Below are positions 410 through 22,242 of a DNA stretch of 64,000 nucleotides, one piece after another. A program made the translations under genes and the position numbers. Where the stretch lies: positions 794,501 through 858,500 of the forward strand of contig CAJNDT010006135.1 of NCBI GenBank assembly GCA_905221615.1. The letters run 5' to 3'. The notes beneath the pieces were generated by a model. The model did no database searches. It saw only the letters and a list, made by a program, of their open reading frames with translations, and was not told the DNA's origin. Source of the stretch: Symbiodinium sp. CCMP2592. Its lineage: Eukaryota; Sar; Dinophyceae; Suessiales; Symbiodiniaceae. Every line of letters begins with the position of its first letter. Position 1 is the first letter of the stretch.

Positions 410-416
410 CCAGTCA

Positions 417-1989: not shown

Positions 1990-2678
1990 TTAAGCCACAC
2001 AGCAAATAACATCGCACGTACTTCTGCACGTATACTTATGCTTGTGCCGGCGTGTACCCTAAGCCCATCAAACTTTAAAGTGCCTATAAAGGGACCTCTT
2101 TGAGGCTTCAGTTTCTATTTTAAAGGTACATGGAGACTGTGGGAAACATGTATGATCACACTGACTCGCGTGCTGGCACTTGGAATTCCAATTGCAAAAT
2201 TCTCCTTTGGGAGCTTTGGGTTTAGAGTTTAGCGGGGTTAGCGTTTAGGGTGGGTTAGGGTTTGGGGCTTTAGGGGTTTAGCGGGTTAGGGTTTAGAATA
2301 ACTACTTGCATGTGTACAGTATAGCCCCCGAACAGAGCTCCGACCTGGTTGTCCAGCATCCTACGCGAACTAAAGGTTAAGTATTGGGAGTGGGTAGGGA
2401 TCATGGTACCCCGAGAAGGCTAACTGTTGCTAACTCTACTGCTAAGAACCCTCAGCCCTAACCTTAAACTTTAAGCCCCAGGAATTCATAATAATGAGCT
2501 CTAAAAGGTAGGTTGCACATACAGGGTCCCGGTGAACGCTTAACCCTCAGGATATATTCAACTTGGACCCTACTCTACTACTCAGACACATCTCCCAACC
2601 CTAAACCCCAAACGGCCCCAAACCCTAAACCTTAGATCCTAAATCCCACCCTGAACCCTTAACCTGTCCTAGGATAGG
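1990..2678. repeat. Degenerate telomere-like tract
   Basis: The stretch contains no convincing gene. It holds TTTAGGG-like motifs on both strands, most clearly at 2217-2296 and again as CCCTAAA around 2590-2660. Confidence 0.7.
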
Positions 2679-2778
2679 GGAGTTTCCGAAAATAGGGTAC
2701 CTTATTTCGGGGTCCTTATAGTAAGGATCCTATAAAGTAGGGCACTGTATTAGGGTCCCCTATTTCCGGAAACTCCCA
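2679..2778. mobile_element. Foldback element, family G
   Basis: The ends form a near-perfect inverted repeat (GAGTTTCCG...CGGAAACTC) with a palindromic centre. Related copies are at 3339, 40463, 46005, 58901 and 61304. Confidence 0.85.
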
Positions 2779-2877
2779 TAGTCAACTTGGAGCAGAGAGG
2801 CTCCAGAAACGAACCTGAAGCCCAAAGCAAGGAGAACCCCCGAGCCGAAACCGCAACCCGAATGGTATAGGTACCTT

Positions 2878-2984
2878 ACCCAAAGGGTCCAATGTACTGT
2901 TATGGGGGATACTTCCTAAGTCATAATAGTAATTCCTAATATGGAAACCCTACATTCTACTATATCGGTACATAGGACCCTTTG
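2878..2984. mobile_element. Foldback element, family K
   Basis: Terminal inverted repeats CCAAAGGGTCC/GGACCCTTTG surround a conserved core. Other copies are at 23677, 42696, 47392 and 52819. Confidence 0.85.
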
Positions 2985-3071
2985 TTAAGAATCAGAATAG
3001 GGTTCCCTTTAAAGGGGTCCTTTAACAAGGGGTCTATAAGGGATCAGGGATCTATAGTAGGGTTCTATAGT

Positions 3072-3178
3072 ATAGGGGCCTTAATAACTGGAATAGGGTT
3101 TTGGGGTATATGATACTATAATTCTAACAAGGAGCCCCCCAAATAGTATAGGTAATTCTTCAGGCCTCTATATTGAGG
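3072..3178. mobile_element. Foldback element, family N
   Basis: Ends read AGGGGCCTTAATAA and TTCAGGCCTCTATATT around a GGGGTATAT/TATACT core. Other copies are at 11713, 22243, 25225, 51589, 55307 and 56508. Confidence 0.8.
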
Positions 3179-3338
3179 CTTAGGGATTAGGGTTGGGGTT
3201 ACCTTTCTGGGGTCCTTTTAAAGGATCTGTAGGGTTTAGGGTTTGGGGTCTAGGTCTCAGATTAATTAGGGTTCATGGCAAAGGCAACATCCACGAGAAA
3301 GCCAAAGACCCGTTTAACAACTTTAAGGTGCACTTCAA

Positions 3339-3448
3339 ACGGGAATTTCCGATAATAGGGGGCCCTGATGGAGTATCCGAAATAGTAGGACCTTATTATA
3401 AGGACCACAATTTAAGGTAATTACTCCTAATTTTCGGAAACTCCCACA
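3339..3448. mobile_element. Foldback element, family G
   Basis: This is a diverged copy of the family at 2679, with GGGAATTTCCG and TTTTCGGAAACTCCC ends. Confidence 0.75.
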
Positions 3449-3667
3449 TGTGATTTGAACAGACCGGGGCTGTCAGGGATTTCTGATTTTTCCGACCTAC
3501 ACGAACTTGCAAATCGAGGCCTAGAGACCAAGATCCCTAAAACTTAAAACCTCAACCCCAAATCATCTTAGGCCCGAAAAACCCTAGACCCGTAAACCCT
3601 AAAGATCCCTGACAGGAACCCTCACAAAGGTAGCCCAAAGCCTAAACCCTGAAACCCAGACACCCCC

Positions 3668-3804
3668 TACTTGGAGGGTCGGGGGACTTAGTAACTGGTT
3701 ATTTGAAGGACTAACCGTGACTAACCCCAATTAGGGTCCCTTTTTAGGGTACTTATCAGTCTACTTACTACCTACTTACTAAGTCCCCCGACCCTCCAAG
3801 TAGG
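3668..3804. mobile_element. Foldback element, family B
   Basis: Long terminal inverted repeats (TACTTGGAGGGTCGGGGGAC and its complement) are followed by AGTAAGTAGG-type subterminal repeats. The family has more than a dozen copies here. Confidence 0.9.
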
Positions 3805-3829
3805 AACCAAACAGCCCTAAGGGCTAGAA

Positions 3830-3899
3830 TCTCTATTGTAGCATCCTAACCATAAAACTGGATAACCAAAAAAAGGAGCTACAATGGAGACTACAGGTA
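3830..3899. mobile_element. Partial foldback element, family F
   Basis: A shortened copy with TCTATTGTAG and CTACAATGGAGAC ends. Fuller copies lie at 30003 and 48860. Confidence 0.6.
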
Positions 3900-3904
3900 A
3901 ACCC

Positions 3905-4369
3905 TGAAACCCAGCCACCCCCTGGAAAATCTAAAGCTTCCCCAACCACCGCCCTGACCTCGGCCCTGAGAAAGCCAGGGTTTAGAGTTTGTTGTTCGGA
4001 GACTTAGGAGTTTGTTTTCTAAGCGCAGAGACTTGGGAGTTGAGGCTTTAGGGTTTATAGTAAGGATCGGTTTAAGTTTGTTGGCTTTTGGCTTCGATTT
4101 CAGAAGAAGACCTCAAACTTCACTGGGCTCAAACGTGCGTGAAGCCAGAACCATAGTCCTCTCTGCAATGCGACGAACGTTTCTGCAAGGATGCTTTTCC
4201 TGTGCGCCAAGGACTGCCCGGTTTAGGTCTACAGGGTTTAGTGATCCGTACGTTTGTGTACCGTGTCGTATGATTCGTGCGCTGGTACGGGTTGACATTC
4301 CTTGATCAAGGCTGTTTCGGTATTTAGTCCCAGGGGATGCTGCAGAATAATTATATAATTATATAGTTT
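3905..4369. other. No convincing gene
   Basis: The left part is CCCTAAA-type degenerate sequence. From about 4090 to 4310 there is a less repetitive stretch with a short plus-strand open frame that resembles chance. Nothing was recognised. Confidence 0.4.
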
Positions 4370-4468
4370 AGAAGGGGCCCCCAACCTGTAATAGTGGTAT
4401 AATAGGAATATAATCGGGCCCTAATATAATCCTTATAGTCACTATTACCGGGTGGGGGCAGCTTCTAA
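4370..4468. mobile_element. Foldback element, family P
   Basis: GGGGCCCCCAACCTGTAATAG and a GGGTGGGGGC end flank TATAATAGGAATATAAT. Two more copies with longer C/G tracts are at 47850 and 48207. Confidence 0.7.
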
Positions 4469-4469
4469 T

Positions 4470-5349
4470 ATATAGTTCCTTAGCCCTCATCATCCCTTTC
4501 CCTTAAACCGCAAAGCCAAAACCGGCGCCCTCAGTGCTAGTTGTTCAAGCTTCTGTTCTCGTCTGAGCCACTAAAGTACAGCGTTTCGAGGATACCTCAG
4601 TACGAAGACTGAGAAAAACGACCCCAAAGCGAAACAACACATCCGTGGATCCCTATCCCACGCGTGAGCAAAGCAGCAGAACCCCTGTACGAAACCCCAA
4701 ACCCTAAGTAGTTAGGGTCTAGGGGTCAGGCTCGGCAATCCATAATTGAGCATTCCAGGCACTCTAACCCTCTTTTTATGTACTTTTCATTTGAATATAG
4801 CTCCCCACCATCGCTTGATAATAACGGCATCCGGTTTATTTTTCCGGATAATTAACAAAGGGGCCTAAATAGTTACCAATACTATTTTATTTTTATTTTT
4901 TTTTTGGGGGGGGTTCCTTCTGATAGTTTCTGATAGTTGTGGTATGATGTGGGCCCCAAAGCCGTATTCTAAATATTAAGGCCCCTATACTACACTAACC
5001 TACTATACCTTTTTAACCCTGTATGAGAACGCTTTAAGGGAACCCCATTCTATATACTCATTACGGCCCCTGTATTGTTGACCCCAAATTCACATGTCAG
5101 AAGGGTACTCCCGGGGGGCCTTGTGATTGAAGCTCCTTAGAGCCCTAGAACCCTGCTGAGGTACCTGGGCTTGCCGAAAGCCCTTAACCCGTAACCTTAA
5201 GCCCAATAGCCCAGAAGCTCTAGACCTTAAGCCCTAAAGCTTTACACCCTAAGCCCTAAAACTCTGAACCCTAGTCCCTACCTTAACCCCAAATAACCTA
5301 CCTTTCACGGACTTATATGAGGAAATCATAATAGGGCTAATAGGGAACC
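4470..5349. other. Gene-free, degenerate repeats
   Basis: The stretch contains T- and G-runs near 4888-4912, a diverged family N-like palindrome at about 4979-5078 and CCCTAAA-like text. No gene was recognised. Confidence 0.4.
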
Positions 5350-5475
5350 CTAAAAAGGTAGGTTCTTTGGGGTCCAGGCAAGCACTACAACCAAGGCCTC
5401 TCCGATCTTTGCCGCGGCCATGCTCTCCGCGGTGGAATATTCCATCTTGAAGGTATAAGGTTTGCGGTCGTGAAG
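5350..5475 (-). CDS. Candidate 3'-terminal exon
   Basis: A GC-rich open stretch of 41 codons has an even, protein-like composition (YTFKMEYSTAESMAAAKIG in the middle). An acceptor-like GATGTCAG precedes it and a TAG stop lies inside TTTTTAGGG. No family was recognised. The only support is codon composition and the splice-site-like boundary. Confidence 0.35.
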   Translation of the reverse strand, partial: LHDRKPYTFKMEYSTAESMAAAKIGEALVVVLAWTPKNLPF

Positions 5476-5579
5476 CTGACATCCTGTCTGATAAGGTCTT
5501 AATCAAGTGGGAACGTTTTAGCATTGTTGGTACGGGTATTGTAGCTTTACAAACGAACAGAACCCAATACATCTCGTAT

Positions 5580-6507
5580 AGGAATGTCCTTGAGCCCTTC
5601 TCAGGGTTTCAACTCTTAAAGTGTCCTGAATATCAATGTAAACGAAGATAGGGTTTGTGTGGGTTTGTGTAGTTGGAGTGCTGGTATGAAGTGGGTAAAT
5701 ATTATAAAAGAGGTCGACAAATGAAATTCAAGTGGTGCCCCCTTAAAGTCCAGAGAAAGATCATGATATCATGCACACACACAGCCAATTGTAACCATTA
5801 AGGCCGCAGCAAGCCTCTTTCAAGCCCCTGTAATCACCTCTGGACGCGTCAATGGAGCACGTTGGACAAAACCTCTAACTAGATCGTCAAGTCCCCTCTC
5901 CCTGAACCCTAAACCCTAAAACCCTAAACTTGGTTTCCACCCTTCTCGGAGGGTCGGGGGACCTAGCAAGTAGGTATAAGGGCCATAATAAGGGTTTTGG
6001 GTTTTGGTGTAGGGTTCAGGTATGGGGTTTCGGGCTGAAGGTCAGGAGTGGCACGTACCTCAAAGAGGGCGAGATTGGGGGGTTAACTTATAATTAACCC
6101 TGACTAGCTACGAAAGTCCCCTAACCCCGCGAGAAGGATTTGGCTTCCGAGACCTCAGAACCTTGCAAGACCCCACAGGCCGCGCAGTTCCGGCAGGTTC
6201 GGGTTTTGTTGGTGTGGAGGCGTCCTTGCGATTATTTAGGAACTTTGTCGAGTTTCTTGAAGCTTCAGTGAAAGGTTAAACCTTTCCCCTGCGATTCCGA
6301 TCCCTCAACCCCTAAGCCCTCAGCCCTGTACAACCTGAAAGATCTCTGCATCGCCTTCATGATCATGTCTTCTGAAACCCTGCTTTACAGGCGATCCAAC
6401 CTTACAACAATTCCCAACAAACTCCCTGTAGAATACTGTCAACACCTTTTCTGCAAGAGTGCATCCTTAGCCCTGCAACCTTTCTTTCAACTGCCAAGCC
6501 ATGTAGT
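5580..6507. other. Gene-poor stretch with a diverged family B element
   Basis: A degenerate family B element with an internal insertion spans about 5942-6135. The rest is mostly CCCTAAA-type sequence. A short minus-strand open stretch at 5820-5903 is not distinguishable from chance. Confidence 0.4.
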
Positions 6508-6610
6508 ACGGTTGATGATATAAATCCTGCATCACCTTAAGGACCCTAAACTATGGGAATAATGGTACATTGCCTATTACGGGTAATGCAGGATTTATAT
6601 CATCAACCGT
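6508..6610. mobile_element. Foldback element, family D
   Basis: About 30-bp near-perfect terminal inverted repeats (ACGGTTGATGATATAAATCC...) surround a short core. This is the best-preserved member of the family that appears to act as introns at 17101-17199. Confidence 0.9.
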
Positions 6611-6656
6611 ATTGCAACCCGAAGCCTGAATCTCTGTAAGATGCCCTAAAGGGAAC

Positions 6657-6745
6657 TCCAGAAAGTTGGAATATGGTTTAAGGGTAGTATACCCTATAAT
6701 TTACCATAGAAGGGTTAGGATAATCATATTCCAACTTTCTGGCTT
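6657..6745. mobile_element. Foldback element, family C
   Basis: Ends CCAGAAAGTTGGAATATG and CATATTCCAACTTTCTGG are exact inverted repeats. Other copies are at 25119, 36699 and 38793, with a partial copy at 24813. Confidence 0.85.
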
Positions 6746-6929
6746 TTACCTTAAAGGCTTCTTTGTCTTGGAGACCTAAGAAAAAGGACCTGGTTCTTGA
6801 GCCTCAAGCATCAACACGTAATGCGCCCCTAAGTAATCTTCTACTACCCTTTTGGCACCCTTCAGGGAACTTGCCAAAGAGCTGTACCCGAAGCCCTCAA
6901 CCCTACCCTAAGGCTCCTGGACCCTCGTT

Positions 6930-7003
6930 GTGAGATCCCAAACCTCAGCTCCCAAAGCCCAAACCCTCCCCCAGAAAGCCCATGACACCTTTGGGAGCCT
7001 TAG
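6930..7003 (+). mobile_element. Intron-shaped dispersed repeat, family Y
   Basis: This 74-bp copy begins GTGAGATCCCAAACC and ends CCTTAG. It is not palindromic. Copies at 21389-21465 (plus) and 33265-33338 (minus) start at exactly the same GTGAG and diverge outside it. The GT...AG termini make it look like a mobile intron (introner). Confidence 0.6.
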
Positions 7004-7020
7004 GGTAGCCCCTAAACCCC

Positions 7021-7240
7021 TAAAACATATATATATATATATATATATACATACCATAAACCCTATATAGGCCCTAAACCCTTATAGATCCCTTTAAAGG
7101 AACCTTAGCCCTGAATCCTAGAAACTCCCAAAGTCTTCCAGGGGACTGCTTCGGGTCTGCGCAAAGCCAACTCGACTTCTGCGTCCGACATAGCTGCGAA
7201 AAAATAGGGTTTAGGGTTTAGGGTTTAGGGTTTAGGGATC
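7021..7240. repeat. AT microsatellite and telomere-like block
   Basis: A (AT)n run lies at 7026-7049 and about four clean TTTAGGG units lie at 7204-7237. Confidence 0.9.
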
Positions 7241-7529
7241 CCGAAAATCCTCTCCCTGAGTCTGTATAGGATTGATAGATTGATGAAGCCCTAAGACCAT
7301 GCTGCGTAAGTCTTTTCAGCTATCTTTGTTCTCAAAACCCTTTCCCCAAGGCTCAATGGACTAATTTGACTAGGGTTTAGGGCTCGAGGGTGTGGGCTTT
7401 TGGCCCCAAAGAGCATACGTTCCGGAAAGGGTTCAATAGGAGTTCTATATGCACTTGATGATTTCGGCATTGAGAGTTGCAGTTTCTGTGTAGCTGGAAA
7501 AGTCGGGTTCGGGCTTAGTTGCAGTGTTT

Positions 7530-7679
7530 CTATAGGGTTGCAGGGGTTTGGCTTTGTGGTGCCAGGTTTGGTAGTACTGCTGTTGCTTTGTTGTTGCTGC
7601 TGTTGTTGTTGTTGTCAATATAGAATCTTCCGGCAAGCTCCTCAACCATGTTCTTGACGAGCCGAGAACGAGCTGTCAT
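7530..7679 (-). CDS. Candidate exon with Asn/Ser repeat
   Basis: A 49-codon frame starts at an ATG (7677-7679). It reads through a CAA/AAC-type trinucleotide tract giving an Asn/Ser-rich run in the middle and stops at TAG. The N-terminal half has a plausible helical composition. Another frame of the same strand stays open too and would read the tract as Thr/Gln. The frame choice is therefore uncertain. Confidence 0.3.
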   Translation of the reverse strand: MTARSRLVKNMVEELAGRFYIDNNNNSSNNKATAVLPNLAPQSQTPATL

Positions 7680-7846
7680 CCCCAAACACCACTCGTCAAA
7701 ACTTCACCAAGGCTGTAGGGATTGGTGATGAAGGTTCAAAAGCCCTTAAGCCATAAAGCGAATTAATTAGTAAGGATCGTGCCCATGGTATGGTGCTCTC
7801 TGAACACTTGAAGACTCTACACACTAATTAACATGCAATCCCCCAA

Positions 7847-8466
7847 ATGAATAACCCCGCGCAGCTCAGTGAGTTATCTTCAATACTGCTGGCAGTCGTG
7901 GATTCATACACAATACTCGTGTCGCATTGCAAGGTGAGTGGTCCCGCAGACACAGACCCAGTGTTGGGCGGTGCTGGGTGTCGTCTAGGTTTCGCCCTGG
8001 CAACAGTGGAGCGTGTAGGCAATGGTAAGAAGTACTTAGTAGCAAACGTAGCAGCATAAGGAGGTAGAAATAAGCACAACTACCTGCACATAGTTGTACT
8101 GTCAGTAGGCAGTAGGAGTTGGAGGAGGAAGGACAGGAGGAGGCAAAATGGAAACCGCAGTGATGAGACACAAGCCTTGAACGTGATGTACCGTTTCGGC
8201 TAAACCCCATAACTCGTTTCCCAGGACCAATGATATTTTGGGTACTGCGCCCACCCTGTAACTGTCTACAAGGTCCATTTTTCTATTTCTAGCTGTGTTA
8301 CAAACATTATCCGACTATTACGAAGTGGGTGCAGTACCTAAACGAAACTGCATTGAGCTTCCTGTTGACCAGACTTGTCGCTTCGAGATTGCCGAGTTTG
8401 GTATTAGCAGATTCGGGGGATGCCGCAGATCGTTTCAGAAGTCTCAGCCCTAACCCTAAACCCTAA
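7847..8466 (+). CDS. Candidate two-exon small gene
   Basis: Exon 1 (7847-7933) starts at an ATG and ends at AAG|GTGAGT, a consensus donor. Exon 2 (8293-8466) follows TTTTTCTATTTCTAG, a strong pyrimidine-rich acceptor. The phases match (0/0), giving about 86 residues. The last codons (SPNPKP and stop) are written in CCCTAAA-type repeats. Exon 1 also stays open beyond the donor to 8059. No family was recognised. Support is from splice sites and phase only. Confidence 0.35.
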
Positions 8467-8917
8467 AGGACCCTAGAACGCTGAGGCCCTTAATCTCAGA
8501 ACCCGGCCTGAACCCTGAACAACCTGTATCCTTGCCCTACAACCCTGAAACTCACCAACAAAACCAAAAAATGCCAAATCCCGAAAGCCCTAAACTCCTG
8601 TAGAAGCCATACTGGCACCTTGTAATAAACCGTAAACTGGGTAGCATGATGAGGGAGACCCCTTAAAGGGTACCCCTTCCGAACCCTACTTCTGGCTCTC
8701 TTAAAAGGGACCTTTTTGAGAGGGTCTATATCCCCGAGGGTCCCACTAATCCTGACTCCATAAACCCTTCATACCCCATAAACCCTATCACCCTGTATGG
8801 CCCCTCCGAAGTCTATAAAGCATAGTTTAGACCCAAAACAGCCCTGATAATTGTTTACAACCTTCTCAGCCCGATTTTACACAATATAAACACCCACCAA
8901 CCTGATAAACCCCATTA

Positions 8918-9027
8918 CCCAGAAGTTCCATGTATAGTGCCATTATGAAATCAGGCCCCAAATGACCATTCTTATTATGGTTTTTGGGACCTAGTTCCAT
9001 AATGGTACTATATATGGAGCCTCTAGG
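8918..9027. mobile_element. Foldback element, family E
   Basis: Inverted ends (AGTTCCATGTATAGTGCCAT and ATGGTACTATATATGGAGCC) surround CCATTCTTATTATGGT. Other copies are at 11832, 49199 and 58293. Confidence 0.8.
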
Positions 9028-9078
9028 TATAAACCCTGTCAAGGCGCCCTTGAAAGGAACTCCGGTCGAGGCCGGGAC

Positions 9079-11303
9079 GCTGCTGAAACTTCTCAGACAC
9101 TTCCCCGACCTGGGTTCTGCACCCCTGCGACTCAGTCTGCCTGGATCTTACTAGGGATTATTTAATTAGGGCTACTACTGCTGATGGACAAAATCCTGCA
9201 TTACCCATTGTAAAGAGTATACCGTAGTTCCCATAGTTTAGAGTCCTTAGGGTCATGCAGGATTTTGTCCATCAGCAGTATTATAGGGATCCACTCCCCC
9301 ATGGTTTGTTTCAGATGCTCGGTTTCTCTCTAAGGTCAGATTGAAGGGTTGAGGCGTTGATACTCGAGCTTGACGCGTTTGGGAGTCGAGAGCCTGATGC
9401 CTTCGGGTTTGCAGCTTTACCCTGAAGCTCAAAATAGCCTAGATGCCTTGTACGGTATCCTTAATATATGGGCCCTTAGACCCTTACATAACCCTAAACC
9501 CCCTACGGCCCTACGGGAACCTCATATTACAGCTTGGCAAATGGGTCAGACCCAGATGAGACACTCCCAGTCTGCAGAGTCAACGCTTGACCTGTTATTG
9601 TCCACTTATCAATTGCTTCAGCGGGTTATACTTCACGGTTGTTGCCAAGCTTCCTAGGTAATTTGTAGGCAACTGCACCCAATCTATCAGCGACGTTCCT
9701 GTCGAAGTCGTCACCTTGGCGTCGCGTGCACCTGATCAGTTACAGTCCCGTCACGAGTTCTGCCTGTAGCCTTCCTGAAAACGCAGTTGACGTAGTCAGC
9801 CAATCGTGTGCCTTTGGGTAAGCCGCAGGTCCAAGCCAGCGATCACCGTCCATGTCCACCACACTAGCGTTGGAATTGGGAGCACGGACCCCTCGAGTGG
9901 CAAATCGCACGTCTTGTTTCACTTCTTCAGACAGGTGCAACTGAGTCTGAAGCGATCCTATGGCATGATCTACTTGATCAATCAACTTCGGAGAGTACCA
10001 GAGGTCGAATTCAGCAGGGTCTAATCCTAGTGAGCAATAGCCTTCTTCGATGTAGTTCCAGGATCCTACGGCTGATGATATAGATCCTGCATTACCTTAA
10101 TGACTCTAGACTCTGGGACTTACAGTATACTCCATATTTATGGGCAATGCAGGATTTATACCCTCCTGTAGCCAGAAATCTTGAGCTATAACCCTAAACC
10201 GTAGCTATCAAGCCATGGCTGCGTTGTAAGGTAAAGTACCGACTGTACATCTGCCTTCATACCCAAAGCGTCTTAAGTACCTTCTGAATACATTGCAGGG
10301 TTTCTATACTCGGAATTACTTTCATGTTTTCCTTTAAACCCTAAGTTCTGTACAGACCCCCATCGACCCTAAAGCCTTTTATAACCCTTCTAGAACCCCT
10401 AAAGGTATCCTGATCGAACCCTACCCAGAGATCCCAACATCCCTTAATTCAGGAATATGCCCTAAACCATAATATTAAGGCCACTATAAGTCAAGGTATA
10501 TTCCCTAATGAAGGGATATTGCAGTACCCTTAAACCCCAAACCCTATAGATCCCTGATAGATCCCTTAAAGGATCCCTTAAAGAAACCCTAGGTATATTC
10601 CTCAACTAAGGGGTGTTGGGATCTCTGACTGAAACTGCAGTAATCATGCAGATGGGTGGTTCTCAAAATTATGATCCCCTTTTTGGGTCCCTAGTTCAGT
10701 ACGGCTCCTATTATTTAGGGTAGCCAAGAAGGGAGCTTAATTTCGACAACCACCCAGATCTGATAATGCAGTACCCTGGGGATCAAAATAGCCCAAAAGC
10801 CTTATATAGCATGGTGTTTGGGCCCAAAAGCCTGAATATATGAGTCCTTAGATCCCTAAACTCTATAGATCCCTTTAAAAGGACCCCTTATAGACCCCTT
10901 TAAAGGAACCCTATATATGAGTCCTTAGATCCCTAGGGGTAATCACCCAGATCTGATTGAAGGCCGGGCCAAAGCTTTCATGGGTGCCATGTAGACGACC
11001 TGACTGTTGGTCGGTTTAGGGTTTCGGGCTGTTGGGGTTTAGAGGGTTTAGGTTCTGGCAGGATTGTATAAACCCCAAACGGTTAAAGGTTACCTACTCA
11101 GCTACTATAAGGTTAAGAGGGTTTAGGGTTTAGGGTTATAAACCCCAAAAGGTTATAGGTTACCGGGTACAAGAAACAAGCAAAAAAAGAAGCCATGCTC
11201 GAGGATACGGTTGCCAAGCAATTCAGTCACGGGTCTGGCTTCTAACCTCAACCTGCAGCCTCAAGGTTCAACTATGCACCATAGACTTTATGTACACATG
11301 CAG

Positions 11304-11341
<38 letters not shown>

Positions 11342-14300
11342 GTGTTTGTTTTTGTGTCGTGTACAGTTGTACACAAGCACGTAGGTGCATCTAACGACTC
11401 TCCCATGTAGACTGTTGCTGCCTGTTACAACCAAGAAAGCCAAAGGCTCCAAACGCAAGCCGTGAGACAGCCAAGTAGAATTTCAGATGGACTCAGACAC
11501 TGAAACTGCTTGCATCTGGCTGTGGTTTAGGATGGCTGACGGGGTAGAGTCTGGTAGAGTGCTACAGATGCCAAACTGGGGAAGGAATACGGACACTGAG
11601 CCACTAAGCCCAATTTCGTACCCCTCAAACCCTTACCCTGAACCCTAAACCCTGCATAAAACACTTGCGGCTCAAGGCTTGGGGATTCAAGTGCAGCATC
11701 CGGCTGAAAACATAATACAGGGGCCCTAAACAAATTAGAAAAGGGTTTGGGGGTACATTATGCTGAAGTCATATTCATTAAGGAACCCAACAATAGTATG
11801 GGAAATTACTTAAGCCCCCATATTACTTGAGCCTAGAGGCTCCATATATAGTACCATTATGGAGCCATAGGTCCCAAAAACCATAATATGAATGGTCTTT
11901 TGGGGCCTGATTCCATAATGGCACTATATATGGAGCCTCTGGGCAGTAGTCCACACCCTAGCCGACCAGCAATATACGACGCAGGCGTCACAAGACGCGC
12001 GCATCTACTGGCCCCTCGCTCCCCCTAAACACGAAGCCCTTGCAAAGTACTTCCACCCTTTCAGAGATCCCAATACCCCCTGAATTAAGGAATAGACCTT
12101 AAATCATAATATTGGGGCCCCTATAATTTCAGCTATTCCTAATTAAGGGATATTGGGATCCCTTAAACTCTAACCCCTATAGATCCCTTATAGGAGCCCT
12201 TAAGGATGCTATTAAAGGAACCCTAGCTATTCCTTAATTGAGGGATATTGGGATCTTTGAGCTTTCAGGAAGCGCAACTTGCCTTGAAGTCGCGGCCGAT
12301 GCCACCTTGAGGCAACGTAAAAGCTGGATAGAGGTGGGCGGCTGGCACACAAACCCCTGGTGCTTAGTAGGGCTAATAGGGGAATGGGTTATGGGGACTA
12401 CTATTGGGGATTAGACAGGGAATGGTTTCAGTTTCAGAGCTTGATTATATGATTATCTAGGTTCCTGAGTAGCCCCTTTTGTATAAGGGTACCCTTTTTC
12501 CTACTATTCGGCCTCAATAAGGGAACCCAAAAAGAAAAAGGACAAAAGGGTACTACTGAGGAACTTGGTAATGAAGGTTTCGTATCCAAGGCTCATGATT
12601 TTCTGAACTGGTACCGGCAGGCTGCGAGACGCGGGGCTGTTCGAAATAGATCCATGCAGGGTCCTCTTCTGCAGTAGATACCGCAACGCCAAGAGTTTTA
12701 AAGGAGCCGCAAGCACTACACTGCAAGTCCTAAGCCTTATAACGCTCCGTGGTAGTAGCCCGAAAGAAGAAACGAGAAGCGAGTAAGGACTTTCTATGGC
12801 ATGGCGTTGATGTGGCGTTGCCACTGCTTTCACACAGGTTGACATCTTCGACAACAAGTCTTCAGATCTGAAGTGATTCAAGCAAAGGAACCAAAAGTGT
12901 CCCCTACATCATACAATGCGTAGCACAAAGTATACATGCACAGCACCAGAAATCAGCACAATCGTCGTCTTGTTCCTGCTACGTTTGCTAACATCGCGAG
13001 CCGCATGTGAGTCTCGAAGGCACACTCTGAACTTTAGATTTCAAGAAGCAGACTCTTGCAGTGAGACCCCAGCCAAGATAGTTACTATACCAGAACTGTA
13101 CTATAACTATACGATAACAAAACTATAACTAGAACCACACGAGTTATACTGTACTATACAATACCATACCAAAGCTACTTATGCCCTGGACCTGCTTCTG
13201 CTGGAATTCGCGATCTGGACGGTAAACTCCAGATCTCAAGCCTTGAACACCCCTAAATTGAGGAACAGACCGTAAAATGGAGCCGGATCCAGAATCTGAC
13301 TTAACATATTTCCTGAATTCAAGGATTTTGGAAGGTCTGGATAACACCGCGCAGCAAAGTTCCATTTGGATCTTCCTACAACACTCTACCCTGTCCAGAG
13401 TTTGGACACCAAGAAACCCTCAACCCTAATATGGTTTGGGTACCTAACTGCATAATGGTATGTGGAGCCTTCTGCTCTAAACCCTACAGAACCCTTAACG
13501 GAACCCTTAAATATGGACCCTCTGGTAGAAGCGATCAACCCCCTTCCCCCGCCCCCTCCGCTTCGCCTGCAGCGTCCATGTGCTGGCCGATGAGGCGCAA
13601 GATGGTGAGCACGGCGATGTTGGTCTTGCCGGCGCCTCGGGGCTTCGGACCCAGGAATCAGATACGTGGCTTTAGGATAGTAGTTGTGTGGGTTAGGATG
13701 TTGGAGAGTATATGATTATTAGGTACTTGGACCCTTGGGGTTAGGGTTTAGGGTTTAGGGCTTCGGAGTTAAGGACTACCTAAACCCTGAATAACCTACC
13801 ATTTTTAGAGTTCCTGATAGTTATGATTTCCTTACATAAGGCCTCAAATAGGTGGGTCATTTGGGGTTAAGGAAGGTTTACGGCTTAGGTTGAAGGCTTA
13901 GGGCTTCGGTTTGGGGCTTAGGGTTTAGAGTTTAGGACAACGCTCATCGAGTGAATGAACGTCCCAACAATTTTGACAACACCCCGTGGAAGCCTCTAAG
14001 CCCTCAACGCGAGGAACTCAAGTGACCCCTAAACCCCCACTTCTTCACATCCTCAAGCCGGAATAGGGTCTAGGAGTCTAGGGTTTAGGGTTGCCATACC
14101 TTGCTATTGAATTTTGCACCCCCGAGTGCCAGCCCCTGATGAATTATGTGCGGTAGCTTTTCTCAGCACTAAAAATCCGCAGAATAACGCCCATGCAAAA
14201 CACAAACTCACCAGTGTTCCTGAGAAGCTCGAAAGCACACGCACACACACACACACACAAAAACCAAAATACAAGCCCGAACCTACATGAGTATGAACTC

Positions 14301-15544
14301 TGAAAATCGAACCCTGCTCGAAAAATGTAAGAGCCCTTTAAGGACCCTCAAGGCAACCCTGCAAGAAGCATTCAGGGTTCCTAGAAGGGCTCGTGTAACA
14401 GCTCCCTTGAAGGATGCGGCTCTGATAAAGGTTCCTTTCAAGAAACCTGACCTTGTATGACTGTGAACTATGACCTCTGGAAAACAAAACCTGGCTCTAA
14501 AACCTATCAGAACCTTCGGAAGCCCGCAAGAACAATTAAAGGTAACCTGAACTAAACCCCAAAACCTAAACCCCTAAACCCAAGCCCTTAAAGGAACTCT
14601 AAACGGAACCTCTGTAAGCAGAAGTCTCTCCGCTGGGTTCCCAAGGCCTGTGGGGGCACAGATCAGCAAGTTCTGCCTCAAGAATCTCTTTCAGATTCTT
14701 TTGTCGTACCCTTAAAGGGGACCCTTTCTAGAACCCTATAGTTCCTTTAGTGGCTTTGGGTTTAGGGTTCCTTTAGAGGCTCTTTCAAGGGCTCAGGGTT
14801 TTTGGGGTTCATTACAAGGCTCTTTTTAAGGGCTTCGGGGTTCAGGTTCCTTTGAGGGCTCCTTTAGGGCTTTGAGTTTCAGGTTCCTTTGAAAGGCTCC
14901 TTTCAGGGCTTTGGGTTTCAGGTTACTTTAAGGGCTGGTTTCAGGGCTTTGGGTTTCAGGTTACTTTGAGGGCTCCTTTGGGGGTGAAGGTTCGGGGTCC
15001 AGGGTTCAAGCTTTAGGATTCACGGTTTACGCCTGTGGGGCTGTAGAGGTTTTAGGGTTATCTGGAATCGCACGTACTTGGTGTTGCTTAGCTGTAAGTT
15101 CATGGATTGAACACGGTGCTGCAGGAGGTGGATGTGCAAAAAAGACTTGCAGGACCAGAGGACCCACCGCCGAGCTTTAAGTATCTATAGGCCGTTCTCA
15201 CCCTACTTCTCCGCTGACCTGCGGGCAATGAGACGGCTTCGGGTGTAGTGTGTTGGGCATGTGGCTTGAGGCTTAGATTGTGACCCTTTAGTTCAAAGGT
15301 AATGACCCTGAAAGACTCAGGGCTTTGGACCCCCAGGTACTTGAAGGCTCATGGGACTTAGTAAGTAAGGTTATAAGTAGGTTATAATTAGGATAGCCCC
15401 AGTTAGGGGACCTATAACCCCAATTATAACCTACTTACCAAGTCCCATGATCCTCTAAGTAAGCCCTAAACTGAGTCCGTCACGAGCGGCCAAAGGCTGC
15501 ATTGAACACAATCGACTGGATCGTGTTCAGCCTCGGCAGTTCGG
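9079..15544 (-). CDS. Ski2-like DExH helicase (Brr2/ASCC3 family), fragment in microexons
   Basis: Six exons read downwards on the minus strand. E1 15484-15544 encodes the LN-x-IQS-x-VF segment before motif I. E2 14648-14676 encodes NLLICAPT. E3 13540-13635 completes the Walker A motif as APTGAGKTN followed by IAVLTILRLIGQH. E4 12283-12305 encodes GIGRDFK. E5 10970-10999 encodes VVYMAPMKAL (motif Ia). E6 9079-9109 encodes VGEVSEKFQQ. Every junction keeps phase: split codons rebuild S, G, G and the rest are phase 0. All five internal acceptors are AG|G. Donors are GT, GC, GT, GC (GCAAGT) and GC. Order and spacing match the first helicase cassette of Brr2 and ASCC3, which act in U5 snRNP remodelling and RNA/DNA unwinding respectively. 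I cannot tell which. Motif II and later exons were not found, so the gene is partial, continues outside what I can read, or is dead. E6 is the least certain exon. A possible upstream exon is 16669-16737. Confidence 0.7.
9176..9280. mobile_element. Foldback element, family D
   Basis: Near-perfect inverted ends TACTGCTGATGGACAAAATC and complement. It lies upstream (gene sense) of helicase exon E6, inside the predicted intron 5. Confidence 0.85.
9362..9575 (+). repeat. Dispersed repeat, unoccupied copy of the 47.8-kb repeat
   Basis: The segment from GCGTTTGGGAGTCG through AATGGGTCAGACCCAGATGA is similar to 47788-48082 but lacks the family P element present there. It therefore acts as a related empty site. 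Confidence 0.65.
9740..10066 (-). CDS. Unidentified 109-codon open exon next to a family D element
   Basis: The frame is open from the D-element edge (…CCGTAG|GATCC) to a TAA at 9740-9742. The product has an ordinary soluble-protein composition: aromatic-rich at first (WNYIEEGYC), then acidic and helical. The AG at the element edge could be the splice acceptor. It lies inside predicted intron 5 of the helicase, so either it belongs to a nested gene, the helicase model is wrong here, or it is a relic. No family was recognised. Confidence 0.4.
   Translation of the reverse strand, partial: GSWNYIEEGYCSLGLDPAEFDLWYSPKLIDQVDHAIGSLQTQLHLSEEVKQDVRFATRGVRAPNSNASVVDMDGDRWLGPAAYPKAHDWLTTSTAFSGRLQAELVTGL
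10067..10170. mobile_element. Foldback element, family D
   Basis: Its left edge coincides with the start of the open exon at 10066. The right inverted repeat is mutated from GATGATATAA to GAGGGTATAA (minus sense), which creates a GT. Confidence 0.75.
10428..10630. mobile_element. Family J foldback with an extra arm
   Basis: Inverted arms (AGATCCCAACATCCCTTAATT and GTATATTCCCTAATGAAGGG) are followed by a CCCTTTAAAGG-type spacer and a third arm ending GTTGGGATCTCTG. The copy at 12062-12261 has the same three-arm layout. Confidence 0.7.
10651..10759. mobile_element. Foldback element, family H
   Basis: Ends GATGGGTGGTTCTCAAAATT and TTTCGACAACCACCCAGATC. Copies are at 24634, 30557 and 55588. Confidence 0.85.
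10772..10855. mobile_element. Foldback element, family I
   Basis: GGGGATCAAAATAGCCCAAAA at one end and TGAGTCCTTAGATCCC at the other. The related copy at 37693 is in opposite orientation; others are at 32480 and 49478. Confidence 0.65.
11067..11165. repeat. Telomere-like block between copies of a family W arm
   Basis: TATAAACCCCAAACGGTTAA…GGTTACC (11067-11092) recurs as TATAAACCCCAAAAGGTTAT…GGTTACC (11137-11164). A short AGGGTTTAGGGTTTAGGG run lies between them. The arm is related to the family W element at 16839. Confidence 0.65.
11300..11340. repeat. AT microsatellite
   Basis: A (AT)n tract of about 30 bp within the helicase intron. Confidence 0.9.
11713..11943. mobile_element. Adjacent family N (11713-11826) and family E (11832-11943) elements
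   Basis: The N copy is diverged but keeps AGGGTTTGGGGGTACATTAT and a right end of AAGCCCCCATATTA. The E copy directly after it is well preserved, with GAGGCTCCATATATAGTACC and its complement at the ends. Confidence 0.75.
12062..12261. mobile_element. Family J foldback with an extra arm
   Basis: Two inverted arms (AGATCCCAATACCCCCTGAAT / CTAATTAAGGGATATTGGGA), a CCCTTATAGGAGCCCTTAAGG spacer, then a second right arm (CTTAATTGAGGGATATTGGG). The layout matches the 10428 copy. It ends about 20 bp from helicase exon E4. Confidence 0.75.
12366..12565. mobile_element. Family U fragment and family V foldback
   Basis: 12366-12430 (AGTAGGGCTAATAGGGGAATG) resembles 49870-49937. 12458-12565 is a hairpin with GGTTCCTGAGTAGCCCCTTTT against AAAAGGGTACTACTGAGGAAC. 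Both are upstream (gene sense) of helicase exon E4, inside intron 3. Confidence 0.55.
12570..13230. other. Helicase intron 3, non-repetitive part
   Basis: Open frames occur on both strands (minus 12568-12881; plus 12916-13128 with a hydrophobic segment). Neither has splice or homology support, and both lie inside the predicted helicase intron. I treat them as chance. Confidence 0.35.
13232..13343. mobile_element. Diverged foldback element, family A
   Basis: The right end GGATTTTGGAAGGTCTGG is intact. The left arm is decayed. Confidence 0.6.
13641..13738. mobile_element. Foldback element, family X, at a helicase splice acceptor
   Basis: TTCGGACCCAG and GGTACTTGGACCC ends with a core shared with 49070-49172 and 53098-53177. 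On the minus strand the element ends 5 nt before the AG acceptor of exon E3, so it forms the 3' end of that intron. Confidence 0.65.
13739..14230. repeat. Telomere-like tracts inside helicase intron 2
   Basis: TTTAGGG-like runs lie at 13735-13765 and 13865-13935. Short open stretches on both strands (13936-14025 plus; 14104-14168 minus) have splice-like edges but lie inside the predicted intron. Confidence 0.6.
14229..14262. repeat. CA microsatellite
   Basis: A (CA)n run of about 30 bp. Confidence 0.9.
14740..15000. repeat. Tandem repeat, about 38-bp unit, in helicase intron 1
   Basis: Repeats of GGGCTTTGGGTTTCAGGTT(A/C)CTTT… start near 14841, 14878, 14917 and 14955, with spacings of 37-39 bp. 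The unit contains a TTTAGGG-like core. Confidence 0.8.
15338..15461. mobile_element. Foldback element, family B (TCATGGGAC subtype)
   Basis: TACTTGAAGGCTCATGGGAC and its near-complement flank AAGTAGGTTATAA arms. It is more similar to the next two copies (16086, 16275) than to other B elements. It starts 22 bp from the donor of helicase exon E1. Confidence 0.85.
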
Positions 15545-15638: not shown

Positions 15639-15746
15639 CAGACCTTCCCAAAATCCCTTGATTAAGAAATATACCCTGAATCTTAATAGGATCCCCAATA
15701 AGATTTAAGGTATATTCCTTAATTAAGGGATTTTGGAAGGTCTGGG
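15639..15746. mobile_element. Foldback element, family A
   Basis: CAGACCTTCCCAAAATCCCTT and AAGGGATTTTGGAAGGTCTG ends with an AGGATCC core. Confidence 0.85.
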
Positions 15747-17045: not shown

Positions 17046-17276
17046 TCTAGGGTTGAACCAAACATGGAAGAATCCTGAACAAAACAAGGCTTGGAGTTGC
17101 CTACGGTTTATGATATACATCCTGCATTATAAGGGCCCTAACTTTATGGCGTATTCCTTACTATGGGTAATGCAGGGTCTGTACCATCAGCCGTAGTACC
17201 TCGAACACACGGAACTTTCCCAGGCTCGCGACTTCTCGGTGCCTTTGAACGCGATTTGCGCCCACTGTGGCAATTC
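17046..17276 (-). CDS. Two exons separated by a family D intron
   Basis: Exon a (17200-17276) follows CTTCACAG|G and encodes GANRVQRHREVASLGKFR among its 25 full codons. It ends GAG|GTACTACGG exactly at a family D element. Exon b starts after the element's other end (…CCGTAG|G) and reaches a TAG near 17046. Phase is consistent (0), but exon b may instead be replaced by the exon at 16669-16737, which also begins in phase 0. No family was recognised. Confidence 0.45.
17101..17199 (-). mobile_element. Family D foldback acting as a whole intron
   Basis: On the minus strand the 99-bp segment begins GTACTACGGCTGATGG and ends AAACCGTAG. The D element (17102-17195) fills it almost completely, so the inverted repeats supply both splice ends. 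Confidence 0.6.
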
Positions 17277-17544: not shown

Positions 17545-18834
17545 CAAGCGCTTCACTAAAGCGACATACGTTAAGTAACCTAGGTCAAGCGTGTTACTAT
17601 GCTCAAGGAATCTCAAGGGCTGGGTACCCGAAACCCTGAAACCTAGACCCTACACCCTAAATCCTAGCTTAAAATGATGTATACGGAGGGCAGTCAGCAA
17701 GCATATTACTCGGGGGCAATTAGAAGGCTGCCGAGCTTCAAACAAGTGAAGCTCAACCTGAACGGCTTAGGGGTTAAGCTTAAGGTTCAAGATGACCCCT
17801 AAGAGTGCAGGTTCTCATATAAAGCACATGTATACATGTAGGCCTCAAAGGGCTCCTATAGCTACATATCTAGATAGTAGGGACGTGGACCCTGAGGGAA
17901 ACATAAGGAATCCGACACTCTAAGCCCTAAACCGTGGAAGCCTAAACATGTAGGTTTGCTCCACAGTCTACAGCTTTCCCTACAGAAACCAAAATCCATA
18001 GTAAAGCACTCCCATGTGCTTTGCCTATGTGGGACCGAGAAGGAAAGATATTGAAACCCTAACTGAGCCTCATGGGAATTATGGTATATTATATTCCTTG
18101 TTATGGGCAATAAAGGATTTACGCCATCAACCGTTTGAAAGGGGCTACAAGGGTTCCTTGAAAAAAGCCTCTGTATGGATACTGTAAGAGTTTAGGAACT
18201 TAGTATGACGTAGTAATTTAGGGTCCCTCAAACCCGTTAACCTAAAACCTGCTGTAGCGCGTTACTACTGCCTTGCAAAGCATGTGTGAAGCTTGTTTTT
18301 ATAAGGCCCAGCGCTTTCAGCACCCTTCAAGTCAGTACTGTACTACATTGCAAGCACTCAACATGACTTCAAACACCTGTGAACGTCGCTAAACTATGCT
18401 GGCAGCAGCAAAAGTAAAAAAGGCTTGCGCCGCACCGTCCTGATCCCCAAGCCCCAAACCCTAAACCCGACACCTAAGACATAGACCCCACGCCCTCAAC
18501 TTAACCCTAAAGTGTGACGCCAAAACCCGAAACGGTCCTTGATCTGCACGTAGTTCACTTTAGCAACCTCCGGGTCGAAGGGTGGTGCCTGAAGCGATTA
18601 TGGTTTAGGGTTCAGCATAGTAGGGTGTAAGGGTTTTGGGTTTTGGGCCAGCAGTTTAGGGTTTGTTGGTTTGTTGTAAGCTGCTGGGACGTCTTGAGCA
18701 AAGGGTTTCTGGCAGGATCTGAACTGTTCCACTTAGACTTGCGCTGCTTAAAGGTTGTGGCTTAAAACGTTTTAGGACACAAGGCTTTGTAACGTTTAAG
18801 GAATTTGACTTGGGGTCTTGGCACTGGCATTATA
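17545..18834. other. Gene-poor stretch
   Basis: CCCTAAA-type degenerate text with one half of a family D element at 18067-18134 (TATTCCTTGTTATGGGCAAT … GCCATCAACCG). No gene was recognised. Confidence 0.5.
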
Positions 18835-19026: not shown

Positions 19027-19856
19027 CATAGATGTCAAAATGAGTCACGGAAACCACCGGACATCCACAAGACCTTAGTCTAGATCTTAGGGCTGCCGAC
19101 GGCAGTTTATCCCAAAAAGCGTTAAGTATTGCGATGACTTTGGAACCTACAAGTTCAGAGATCCAATAACCTGCGGTTTTCAGGGAATAGCCTCATGACC
19201 GTCAGCGTAGACGGTGGTGGTGTTATTTGCGGAAAATCATCCTCTTTCTCCAACCTAAACCCTAAACCCCTAAACCCTAAACCCTAGTCAAACCTGGAAC
19301 ACCAGAGACGAGAGCTGGGTATCAGGCCGCTGGCACATCCACACGCTCGTAGCCTGGCAACAGAAGCACAGAAGGCCCAATACCACTGAATTTAACAAAG
19401 TTACTTTGGAGTGTACGGTAAGTAGAAACGGTAAGCTACGGGCTTCTTGAACTTAGGGGTCTTATTATGGGGATGCTTGTATAGAGTCTGCTGCAGGTTG
19501 TGTCTGTACAGGGTCTGCTACGTTTTTCGGAAACCGTCAAGGGTGGCCAGGAGCGGGAGTAACCCCAAGCACCTGTAATGTCCCTCCACTCTGCCTTAAC
19601 ACGCACCGAACACGGGATCCAAATATGGTGCCCTGAATAACAGGATCCGTACTCTAAGGACCCCAAAATAGGGTAAACCCTAAACCCTTTATAGAACCCC
19701 CTATAGTTCCCTTATAGATCCCTTCAAAGGAACCCCTTGGGTCCCCGTATTTTCGGAAACTCCCATGTGGCGTCTGGCAAAATTCGGAACACAAGGCTGT
19801 AAACTCATGAAGTCCTCAAGGCTCCTGGAACCTCATTCTATAGGGACCTTAATACC
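19027..19856. other. Gene-poor stretch
   Basis: It contains a CCCTAAA run at 19255-19290 and the right end of a family G element at 19740-19770 (TTTTCGGAAACTCCCATG). No gene was recognised. Confidence 0.45.
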
Positions 19857-19974: not shown

Positions 19975-21388
19975 GTACCTACAACAAGGTTCCCTTAAAG
20001 GGTTCCTTTTAAAGGGGTCTATTTGGGGTCTACAAGGGTTACTGTAGTTGGGTTCTATGATATGGGGGCCTTAATAATTAGAATAGGAAGACTCTCGTGT
20101 CTGGGCTGTAGGGGTTACCGACTAGTTAGGTTACTAGGTCGGCATTACTTCACAAACATCCGAGACCGCTTGCATGGCGTTATGAAGCTGTACAAGCCGC
20201 TGCCAACCGTTCCAGCAGAGTGTAGGGCTCAACCAGTCAGAAAGCTTTCAGGCTTTCGGATTTAGAGGGGCATGGGTTCACCACCCTACAGGCTAAGGCT
20301 TAAAAAGGCAGCTTAGGGTTTGCAAGGCCCAGGGTTACAGGGTTTAGGGTTTTGCTTGCCAAATCACCCTGAAGCCTACAACCTAAACAAGACACCCGTT
20401 TCCCCCCACCTTTGAAGTGCTTCCTCTCGGTGCCCTCGGGGAGAACGAGCTTGAGACCTCGCTGCGGTTCAGGCCGGGATTTCGGGTTTGAAGAGTTCAG
20501 TTTAAGGTTTAGGATTTAGGGTTTAGGGTTTAATTGAAGAGTTTAGTTTACCGGGTCTGCCAGGAATTCCCATGGAAATCCGTAGGGTCCTTGTCAGTTA
20601 GAATCGGGCTTTGGAGCCCACTATACTACACTTATAGTAACGAACCCACAAAAAAATGTAGGCAAGTTTATTTAAGGCACCAGAAATAGTTGGTCTTAGG
20701 GTAACAAAACGCACGAAGCTGTCGGGTTTGTACACATCCACACTCTCCTGACATTCCTGCATCCTGAACCCTGAAAACCCTTGGCGCCCATAAACCTTCA
20801 AACGCAAACCCTAAACCCCAAAACCTTAAACACCCTAAACCCTGAACCCCAAATGACCCCAAAGCCCTAAACCCTTAAACCCCTAAGCCCCAAAAATGCC
20901 AAAAAAAACACCCTAAAACCCCCTAGCCCTGTACACCCTCAACCCCACCATCCCAAACGAATCCAAAAGCCCGACATCCCTGAAACCTAAACCCATCAAT
21001 CCTAAGCACCAAATGCAGCGGCATTTACACTAAAAGCAAGGTTACGGGTTTGATTAAACTATAATAATATCCTTTTACAGGGACGTGTGGATGGCAGGAT
21101 ATTACTGCAGACGGCACGGCTCATCTCAACCCTCGGGCCTCTCACAGGGTGCATGTGCCTTAGATTTGCGTTTGAAGCTTTAGGGTTTCGGGTTCTGCAG
21201 CTCTGAACCATTTTCTGAGGGTCAGGCCCATCCCAGCCAAGTTGGATTGATGGATGTTCTTGCTCTTGTTCTCACCTGGGCTGCACGTGATAGGGTTTGG
21301 GGGCTTCCCGGGGTTAAGGATACTCAGTAGACTTGCTAGGTCAAACGAACCTCCAAGCAGGAATGAGGGTATACCGTAAGTCTCGTCA
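19975..21388. other. Gene-poor, CCCTAAA-rich stretch
   Basis: Includes a truncated family N end at 20057-20092, telomere-like runs at 20505-20535 and a CCCTAAA-rich tract at 20800-21000. Short frames are not supported. Confidence 0.5.
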
Positions 21389-21465: not shown

Positions 21466-22242
21466 GGTGGGGCCTCTTTAGGGCTTAGGTCTTTGGAAAT
21501 GTAGGTTCTGTCAACATGGGGACCTCACGAACTGAATGACCTAGGGCATTTGGGTTTTTTTTGAGATGGCCCCCCCTGGCGCCCCGAGTTTGGGCGCGGC
21601 TCCGGGTTACAGACCTGGAGGATTGGGGGCTTGCTTAGGAGCTTTAGAGATTAGGGTTTAGGGTACTTTGAGGTCAGGTGCCGTGTCTCTGGGCAGTCTT
21701 TCAGGGGTCGTGGGGGCCATATAGAGCACACTCTGCCTGCAACGCTTACTACACAATATCTTGGCAGCCAGAACGATTGGCAATCCTGTGGTGTGATGAT
21801 TTGCCATCGAAACCCTACAACAAGCTCTATTGACCCCTTCACCCTAGTTTCCAAACAATACAAGCCCTCTAAACAGTATAACCCTCATAAGCACTACAAA
21901 CACTCTCAGCCCAAAACCATTAAACTTTAAATCCTGAACCCCTAATAGCCTAAACCCCATCATGGACCCTACAAGCTGTAAACCCCTCGGCCCTATAAAC
22001 CCTATAAGACTTGTAAACCCTAAACCCTACACCCTACTCAGAAAAACACACTATAAAGTCTATGAACTATATAAACCGTATGAACCGTATAAACACCACA
22101 AGCACTATAAGCCCTAAACCTACTCGAAAACTCTCCTAACTATTTATGCAGTGCAGAAGGCTCGAGGATTTTGCGGCCACCAGAGGCTTCTTGATCTCCA
22201 GCTCCTCGGTCCGAGGGACTTTCAAGGCCGAGTTCAATTGTG
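21466..22242. other. Gene-poor stretch
   Basis: CCCTAAA, TATAAACC and similar degenerate units fill 21840-22130. No gene was recognised. Confidence 0.5.

Follow-up and report, generated by a model that had tools for sequence, protein, structure and literature searches.

The window that we analysed, 64,000 nt of Symbiodinium genomic DNA, carries on its minus strand a series of very short exons that together encode part of a helicase. They almost certainly belong to the N-terminal third (residues 244–570 of about 2186) of an intact nuclear ASCC3 gene with a microexon structure. ASCC3 is the helicase of the human ASC-1 complex; its yeast counterpart is Slh1 and its plant counterpart DExH14. Using our own spliced dynamic programme, we could match the window to P0121, a JGI protein of 2186 aa on a 6,664-nt contig, through 25 exons running from 62,489 down to 9,079. 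Joined, these exons form an intact frame of 982 nt that corresponds to P0121 residues 244–570, with 326 of 327 residues identical. This 15 % of the protein covers 53 kb of genome, so that the 6.7-kb contig of P0121 must be spliced and is most likely a transcript.

All exons given here were taken from the spliced alignment to P0121. The end of an open-ended intron (62490–64000, partly a tandem array) precedes the first exon of the gene in the window, 62432–62489 (58 nt, ELLWFRGACEEHLARQGQA, donor GC). The start of this exon was placed at the AG|G at 62489; the alignment itself began one codon earlier, with a mismatch. Then follow 60199–60242 (44 nt, GSSSSAGGGGGTSMT, GC), 59476–59507 (32 nt, VEELMGQLLE, GC), the smallest exon at 58037–58052 (16 nt, TLDKGE, GA), 56318–56359 (42 nt, GT), 54704–54754 (51 nt, GC), 54076–54123 (48 nt, GC), 53243–53259 (17 nt, GQSAA, GT) and 51470–51498 (29 nt, GC). 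A gap of 24,050 bp between consecutive P0121-matching exons represents the longest intron (27420–51469). Beyond it lie 27361–27419 (59 nt, GC), 26096–26127 (32 nt, GT), 24369–24392 (24 nt, GT), 22770–22809 (40 nt, GC), 22162–22204 (43 nt, GC) and 21228–21275 (48 nt, GC). The last of these holds the sole mismatch to P0121, at residue 425 (N in P0121, K here). The series continues with 20410–20457 (48 nt, GLKLVLPEGTERKHFK, GT), 19328–19353 (26 nt, GYERVDVPA, GC), 18538–18588 (51 nt, GA) and 17233–17276 (44 nt, ELPQWAQIAFKGTE, GT).

The six remaining exons (9,079–15,531) had been proposed in an earlier note as the motif I to Ia region of a Brr2/ASCC3-type helicase, and all of them were found on the minus strand, in order and in phase. 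They are E1 at 15484–15531 (48 nt, KLNTIQSIVFNAAFGR, donor GT, with AG|G at 15532/15531), E2 at 14648–14676 (29 nt, QNLLICAPT, GC), E3 at 13567–13635 (69 nt, GAGKTNIAVLTILRLIGQHMDAA, GC), E4 at 12283–12305 (23 nt, GIGRDFK, GC), E5 at 10970–10999 (30 nt, VVYMAPMKAL, GC) and E6 at 9079–9109 (31 nt, VGEVSEKFQQ, GT), the last exon of the gene in the window. The two halves of motif I are encoded in E2 and E3 and motif Ia in E5. Ten of the twelve exon boundaries, which we derived from the span and intron lengths in the note, were right. The start of E1 had to be moved from 15544 to 15531, which restores AG|G, and the end of E3 from 13540 (GT) to 13567 (GC donor). The six exons therefore measure 48, 29, 69, 23, 30 and 31 nt and do not range from 23 to 96 nt. 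Intron lengths of 807, 1012, 1283 and 1860 bp had been given exactly, while the supposed 1234-bp intron really has 1261 bp, and GC begins four of the five introns instead of three. Of the 25 exons in the window the note had recognised these six, and it made no mention of the repeat polarity presented below.

The exon model was supported by further alignments. With P0131 as query all 25 exons were found, some with shifted ends, along with a spurious additional one near 63.6 kb; with P0123 we recovered 23 of 25, the 16-nt and 17-nt exons found through P0121 and P0131 being missed. The spliced score of the whole gene was 1197 half-bits, compared to 104 for the plus strand and a mean of 91 (maximum 115) for 15 dinucleotide shuffles. 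The comparison with shuffled sequence that had been suggested for E4–E6 gave a score of 104 with P0121 as query, while the best of 200 shuffles reached 36. With the human ASCC3 counterpart as query, the same exons scored 51, and none of 200 shuffles scored that high (maximum 37). A spliced alignment with the human sequence alone, as the note had proposed for ASCC3, detected 8 of the 25 exons whole or in part, but missed E4 and E6 and added spurious exons. The exon model thus rests on P0121, P0131 and P0123 as queries in place of the human protein.

A peptide search with the joined exons of the window returned 3527 matches. Among the best 120, the 13 top matches had 72–86 % identity, and the following ones at most 57 %. 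P0131 is from Durusdinium trenchii, P0123, P0126 and P0129 are Trinity transcript products from EukProt, and the rest of the 13 are presumably dinoflagellate proteins. The 86 % identity of P0121 in this search is lower than the near-identity over 25 exons because the query at that time lacked one exon. Against the PDB, the six joined exons with the E1 start of the earlier note matched human ASCC3 (8alz_B) at E = 2.6e-30, human Brr2 at 3.7e-28 and Slh1 at 2.5e-24; the Pfam DEAD domain was hit at E = 2.7e-12. The assignment to the Ski2-like/Brr2 family was correct, and within it the choice falls on ASCC3. In a tree built by a quick method from 27 of 240 helicase proteins, with P0121 representing the window and BRR2 rows picked by name or PF21188, ASCC3 and dinoflagellate rows were split from BRR2 rows with an SH-aLRT of 100. 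The eight dinoflagellate rows formed one clade on the ASCC3 side, in which D. trenchii and two further rows were the sister group of P0121. This placement points to a dinoflagellate of Suessiales/Symbiodiniaceae type as the source of the DNA. In P0121 the Sec63, DEAD and winged-helix stretches each occur twice, which gives a double helicase cassette; the window itself covers only residues 244–570. The N-terminal plug domain of Brr2, PF21188, is absent from P0121 at E 0.01, and no listed row named ASCC3 has it. Identity as Brr2 was rejected on account of the tree position and the missing plug domain. PF18149 is also absent from P0121, but it does not discriminate, since some rows named ASCC3 carry it. 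An NCBIfam search of P0121 gave general helicase matches only. In the sequence of motif I–Ia and the N-terminal region, the domain layout of P0121 and the tree position, the gene resembles known ASCC3 genes; it differs from them in its structure, as 327 residues are spread over 25 exons. Were the remainder of the gene built in this way, about 165 exons over some 200–360 kb would be expected.

The next P0121 segment after the exon at 9079–9109 (LGPLGVNV...) could not be placed within the 64-kb window, and an unrelated open frame of 495 codons lies downstream on the same strand (417–1904). Both observations could speak for the exons being remains of a pseudogene or chance matches. We consider this very improbable, since the 982-nt frame is intact and differs by one amino acid from a protein on a spliced contig, and since the alignment scores lie far above those of shuffled sequences. 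If the helicase gene continues past 9,079, the following intron (1–9078 in the window, at least 9,078 bp) exceeds 9 kb and houses the frame at 417–1904. In P. glacialis CCMP1383, 8.4 % of the genes are reported to lie within introns (PMC7245778), so the frame is no argument for a broken helicase gene. It has at least 99 relatives among 7999 scored candidates, and all members with an organism name are dinoflagellate. The best named one among the matches listed is 'GIP, partial [Symbiodinium sp. KB8]' with 84 %. In two relatives, P0322 and P0324, locus length equals coding length, so at least these two are single-exon genes. Neither this frame nor six others of the 20 open frames listed for the window had a Pfam match at E 0.01.

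Acceptors are AG|G in all 24 introns, in line with what had been noted for the six exons, and the donors are GC in 15 introns, GT in 7 and GA in 2. As the alignment programme gives AG|G a bonus of 4 half-bits and considers no donors other than GT, GC and GA, we rechecked the junctions without this bias by listing all boundary pairs within 14 nt that give the same peptide. At each junction a single G[TCA]-AG solution keeps the peptide, in all 24 cases at AG|G, and at 17 junctions no GT-AG solution exists. The dinoflagellate-type signature of spliceosomal introns, a G(T/C/A) donor combined with an AG|G acceptor, is thus present 24 times out of 24. In Table 2 of PMC10666404, GC donors account for 43.6–58 % in five of six non-parasitic dinoflagellates (25 % in A. 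gibbosum) and AGG acceptors for 79.7–97.1 % in all six. Polarella glacialis has 52.7 % GC, 28.8 % GT and 18.5 % GA donors there, with 96.9 % AGG. A review gives 25–74 % GC/GA-AG introns for Symbiodiniaceae (PMC11453091), and published gene-prediction pipelines for dinoflagellates are described as already adapted to non-canonical donors. GC donors with AG|G being the norm in this group, the splice sites themselves are no surprise.

They carry little information. Corrected for small sample size, we obtained 3.9 bits for the 5' sites (–4 to +8) and 7.8 bits for the 3' sites (–20 to +4), a total of about 12 bits per intron. Each kb of intron contains on average 28 AGG and 9 AGG[CT] sites, too many for the exons to be selected by the motifs alone. 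None of the 24 donors reads GTRAGT, and RAGT follows GC in two (GCGAGT and GCAAGT). Pyrimidines make up 57.5 % of the tract before the acceptors compared to 50.4 % over the introns. The branch motif YTNAY is not enriched (11 of 24 introns, 10.2 expected), and CTRAY was found in 5 (2.6 expected). CTAAAC is present at –60 to –13 in 8 of 24 introns with 1.6 expected, a count reached in none of 500 random sets. No DinoSL sequence was detected within the window with up to 3 mismatches.

The exons range from 16 to 69 nt, with a mean of 39.3 and a median of 42 nt. Introns range from 565 bp to 24,050 bp (median 1261), with 23 of 24 falling between 0.57 and 2.2 kb. G+C content is 58.0 % in the coding exons versus 47 % in the introns. 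Published exon means for dinoflagellates are 98.7–239.9 nt, with 578.7 for Amoebophrya (PMC10666404, Table 2), or 101–158 nt, with 577.8 for Amoebophrya (PMC7245778); further reported means are 101.7–255.7 nt. A chlorarachniophyte genome that its authors call the most intron-rich has a mean exon length of 101 nt (PMC12730881). The contrast in size is somewhat overstated, because the published means include single-exon genes and may lack tiny exons, whereas our value describes one gene and says nothing on the genome as a whole. With 24 introns in 982 coding nt the gene has about 24 introns per kb, compared to roughly 8–9.5 per kb that we calculate from the Suessiales columns of PMC10666404, Table 2. 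The Suessiales (Polarella glacialis and Symbiodiniaceae) share with our gene the donor order GC > GT > GA, the AG|G acceptors and intron-nested genes, and differ from it in exon mean, which is 98.7–158 nt in the published tables versus 39 nt here (PMC10666404, PMC7245778). P. glacialis is also close in coding G+C (57.8 % versus 58 %) and in intron length (reported mean 1408, median here 1261). Exon fragmentation is extreme, while the splice sites are ordinary for dinoflagellates.

The introns are rich in repeats. Foldbacks had been described in the earlier note, and we counted 52 inverted pairs of at least 20 nt, at most 400 nt apart, between 9 and 25 kb, a count made without a shuffled control. 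Five foldback families of about 95–130 bp (15335–15463, 15645–15740, 9170–9286, 11829–11946 and 24638–24739) resemble miniature inverted-repeat elements and match 2–12 places each on the window's plus strand. A 181-bp tandem repeat inside the 24-kb intron (38974–39570, 3.3 copies, 100 % matches) has three units carrying a foldback that is also found at 10432, 12068, 15645, 28651 and 54822. At the intron end upstream of the first exon there is a higher-order tandem array (62749–64000) with units of about 65–70 nt nested in periods of 157, 222 and 380 bp, which includes telomere-like repeats. Rfam yielded nothing in the window at gathering thresholds, and a 96-nt tRNA-Arg(gcg) called by ARAGORN at 2795–2890 on the minus strand is probably spurious.

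Telomere-like repeats in the introns had been pointed out as well, and in the 24 introns we found 1056 starts of 7-mers in the G-form (TTTAGGG) and 751 in the C-form (CCCTAAA). Read in the direction of the gene, they flank the exons with a set polarity, the C-form upstream and the G-form downstream. In the first 100 nt of the introns the G-form outnumbers the C-form by 123 to 26 7-mers, and in the last 100 nt the C-form outnumbers the G-form by 140 to 8. Within 100 nt, 33 exon flanks agree with this rule and 3 disagree, and 14 of the 50 have no dominant form. The resulting difference of 30 compares to a mean of –2.3 (sd 4.5, maximum 14) in 5000 sets of pseudo-exons placed at AG|G sites away from exons. 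Counting the 48 intron ends instead, those with a dominant form agree in 18 of 20 cases at 50 nt, 31 of 34 at 100 nt, 34 of 39 at 150 nt, 34 of 40 at 200 nt and 33 of 40 at 250 nt. When only the nearest 7-mer is considered, 36 of 48 ends agree (p = 7e-4). The test was made after the pattern had been seen, on one gene at one locus. Taken together, an ASCC3 gene of this structure and the polarity of its repeats are very probably real features of the locus.

Over whole intron halves the polarity has the expected sign in only 18 of 24 introns (p = 0.023). At the 3' end it extends no farther than about 200 nt, and at 200–400 nt from that end G-form 7-mers are in the majority (113 versus 51). Within 150 nt of exons the 7-mers are 1.8 times denser than over the strand. 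There are exceptions: at 150 nt, the C-form stands at the 5' end of five introns, and neither form is present at the 5' end of three introns and at the 3' end of six. Both open-ended introns agree with the rule near the exon. The one at 1–9078 has 24 G-form and 0 C-form 7-mers in its first 1000 nt (105 and 91 over the whole stretch), and in the one at 62490–64000 all are C-form (0 G, 183 C). Tracts with four GGG runs are present within 150 nt of the 5' end in 12 of 24 introns, but never within 150 nt of the 3' end; for the C counterpart the numbers are 1 and 10. After masking of the repeats a weaker skew from G to C persists, with 14 of 24 ends on each side and p = 8e-4 for the difference at 100 nt. 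A strand bias of the whole gene was ruled out as the cause, as the sign flips across exons. We found no description of such a polarity in the titles, abstracts and part of the texts of the mostly open-access literature on dinoflagellate microexons or short exons and on telomere-like repeats and introns. The 24-kb intron (27420–51469) has alternating G- and C-form runs inside (108 runs) without the overall polarity of the other introns, and its halves are reversed, with 133 G and 143 C in the first and 285 G and 107 C in the second.

The polarity might be a scar of intron origin or growth without any role in splicing, left by telomere-like DNA captured at breaks or by symmetric elements with terminal inverted repeats; we regard this as a fair contender, but would not bet on it. 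If such an element had TTTAGGG as its left arm and CCCTAAA as its right arm, the outermost repeats of any intron would face each other. An intron oriented TTTAGGG...CCCTAAA corresponds to a head-to-head telomere junction or to an inverted-repeat element, which counts for an insertion scar. So do the foldback elements, which are dense in the window, and the introners with inverted repeats that have been reported in dinoflagellates (PMC7789003, PMC9860276). However, compact symmetric elements should produce compact switches from G- to C-form, and inside the introns these are no more compact (median gap 132 nt, 73 switches) than those from C- to G-form (median 99 nt, 61 switches). The repeats also lie at variable distances from the intron ends. 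Recent insertion of an introner element in each intron appears unlikely. The AG|G...AG|G junctions do look as if insertion had taken place at proto-splice sites, related genomes are reported to abound in introners, and AG|G boundaries and abundant intron inverted repeats are likewise described for dinoflagellate introners (PMC7789003, PMC9860276). Published introner criteria call for inverted repeats of 8–20 nt near both ends and direct repeats of 3–5 nt, and in these two features our introns differ from the introners in those reports. Inverted repeats of at least 8 nt within 30 nt of both junctions occur in 1 of 24 introns, with 1.7 expected from mismatched pairs. No contiguous direct repeat exceeds the mismatched expectation, and AG|G matches are no more frequent within introns than between introns; the single positions –5 and –6 match slightly above expectation (0.42 and 0.33 versus 0.27 and 0.24). 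Furthermore, no match spans a whole intron among the best 70 of 2176 hit lines of an all-against-all comparison (E 1e-5, self-hits included). Old, decayed introners are a possible origin of the introns.

The G-form at the 5' end and the C-form at the 3' end are complementary, and their pairing in the RNA could fold the intron and join its ends, as proposed for Amoebophrya introners. The pairing is indeed stronger than with the 5' end flipped (p = 1.5e-4 at 100 nt), but flipping the 3' end makes no significant difference (–45.9 versus –45.0 kcal/mol, p = 0.90 at 100 nt), and pairs made of ends from different introns do as well (p = 0.13, 0.56 and 0.87 at 30, 60 and 100 nt in a permutation test). 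Pairing across exons, which would hide the exon, is equally strong (–44.2). We therefore find end pairing improbable as the reason for the polarity.

To judge from the relative P0121, the introns are probably excised by the spliceosome, even though the motifs are by themselves too weak to mark the exons. Part of the missing information may be supplied by the contrast in G+C between exons and introns and by the polarised repeats. G-runs (UUUAGGG) next to the 5' sites could form G-quadruplexes or be bound by hnRNPs that recognize G-runs, and C-rich tracts bearing CUAAAC would stand next to the 3' sites. UAGGG is an hnRNP A1-type motif. With splice-site motifs as weak as 3.9 and 7.8 bits, the repeats may help to define exons, and we tentatively put them forward as a candidate splicing signal that adds exon-defining information; the explanation by insertion history is about as likely. 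Introns with non-GT donors do not have G-runs significantly more often (12 of 17) than those with GT (3 of 7, Fisher p = 0.36). Tracts able to form G-quadruplexes are known near 5' splice sites in mammals, and the G-runs here are likewise concentrated just inside the 5' end of the intron; they differ from the mammalian tracts in being telomere-like and in having a mirror C-form at the 3' end (PMC5778605).

The locus sharpens the question of how dinoflagellates, whose donors show so little consensus, select their splice sites. It has exons of 16–69 nt, introns with a median of 1.26 kb and about 12 bits of motif per intron, and it offers a testable candidate signal in repeats whose orientation flips at most exons. 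On a wider and more speculative scale, which we rate as rather doubtful, the lineage may have recruited telomere-type repeats throughout its genome as a two-sided code for exon definition, CCCUAAA before and UUUAGGG after the exon, with RNA-binding proteins or G-quadruplexes as candidate readers. If so, a spliceosome could find exons of 16–69 nt between kilobase-long introns in spite of 5' sites almost devoid of consensus, and a gene could contain well over 100 microexons. Should the polarity prove general, gene prediction in dinoflagellates, which easily loses exons of this size, could be improved with its help, and telomere-like repeats would gain a role in splicing.
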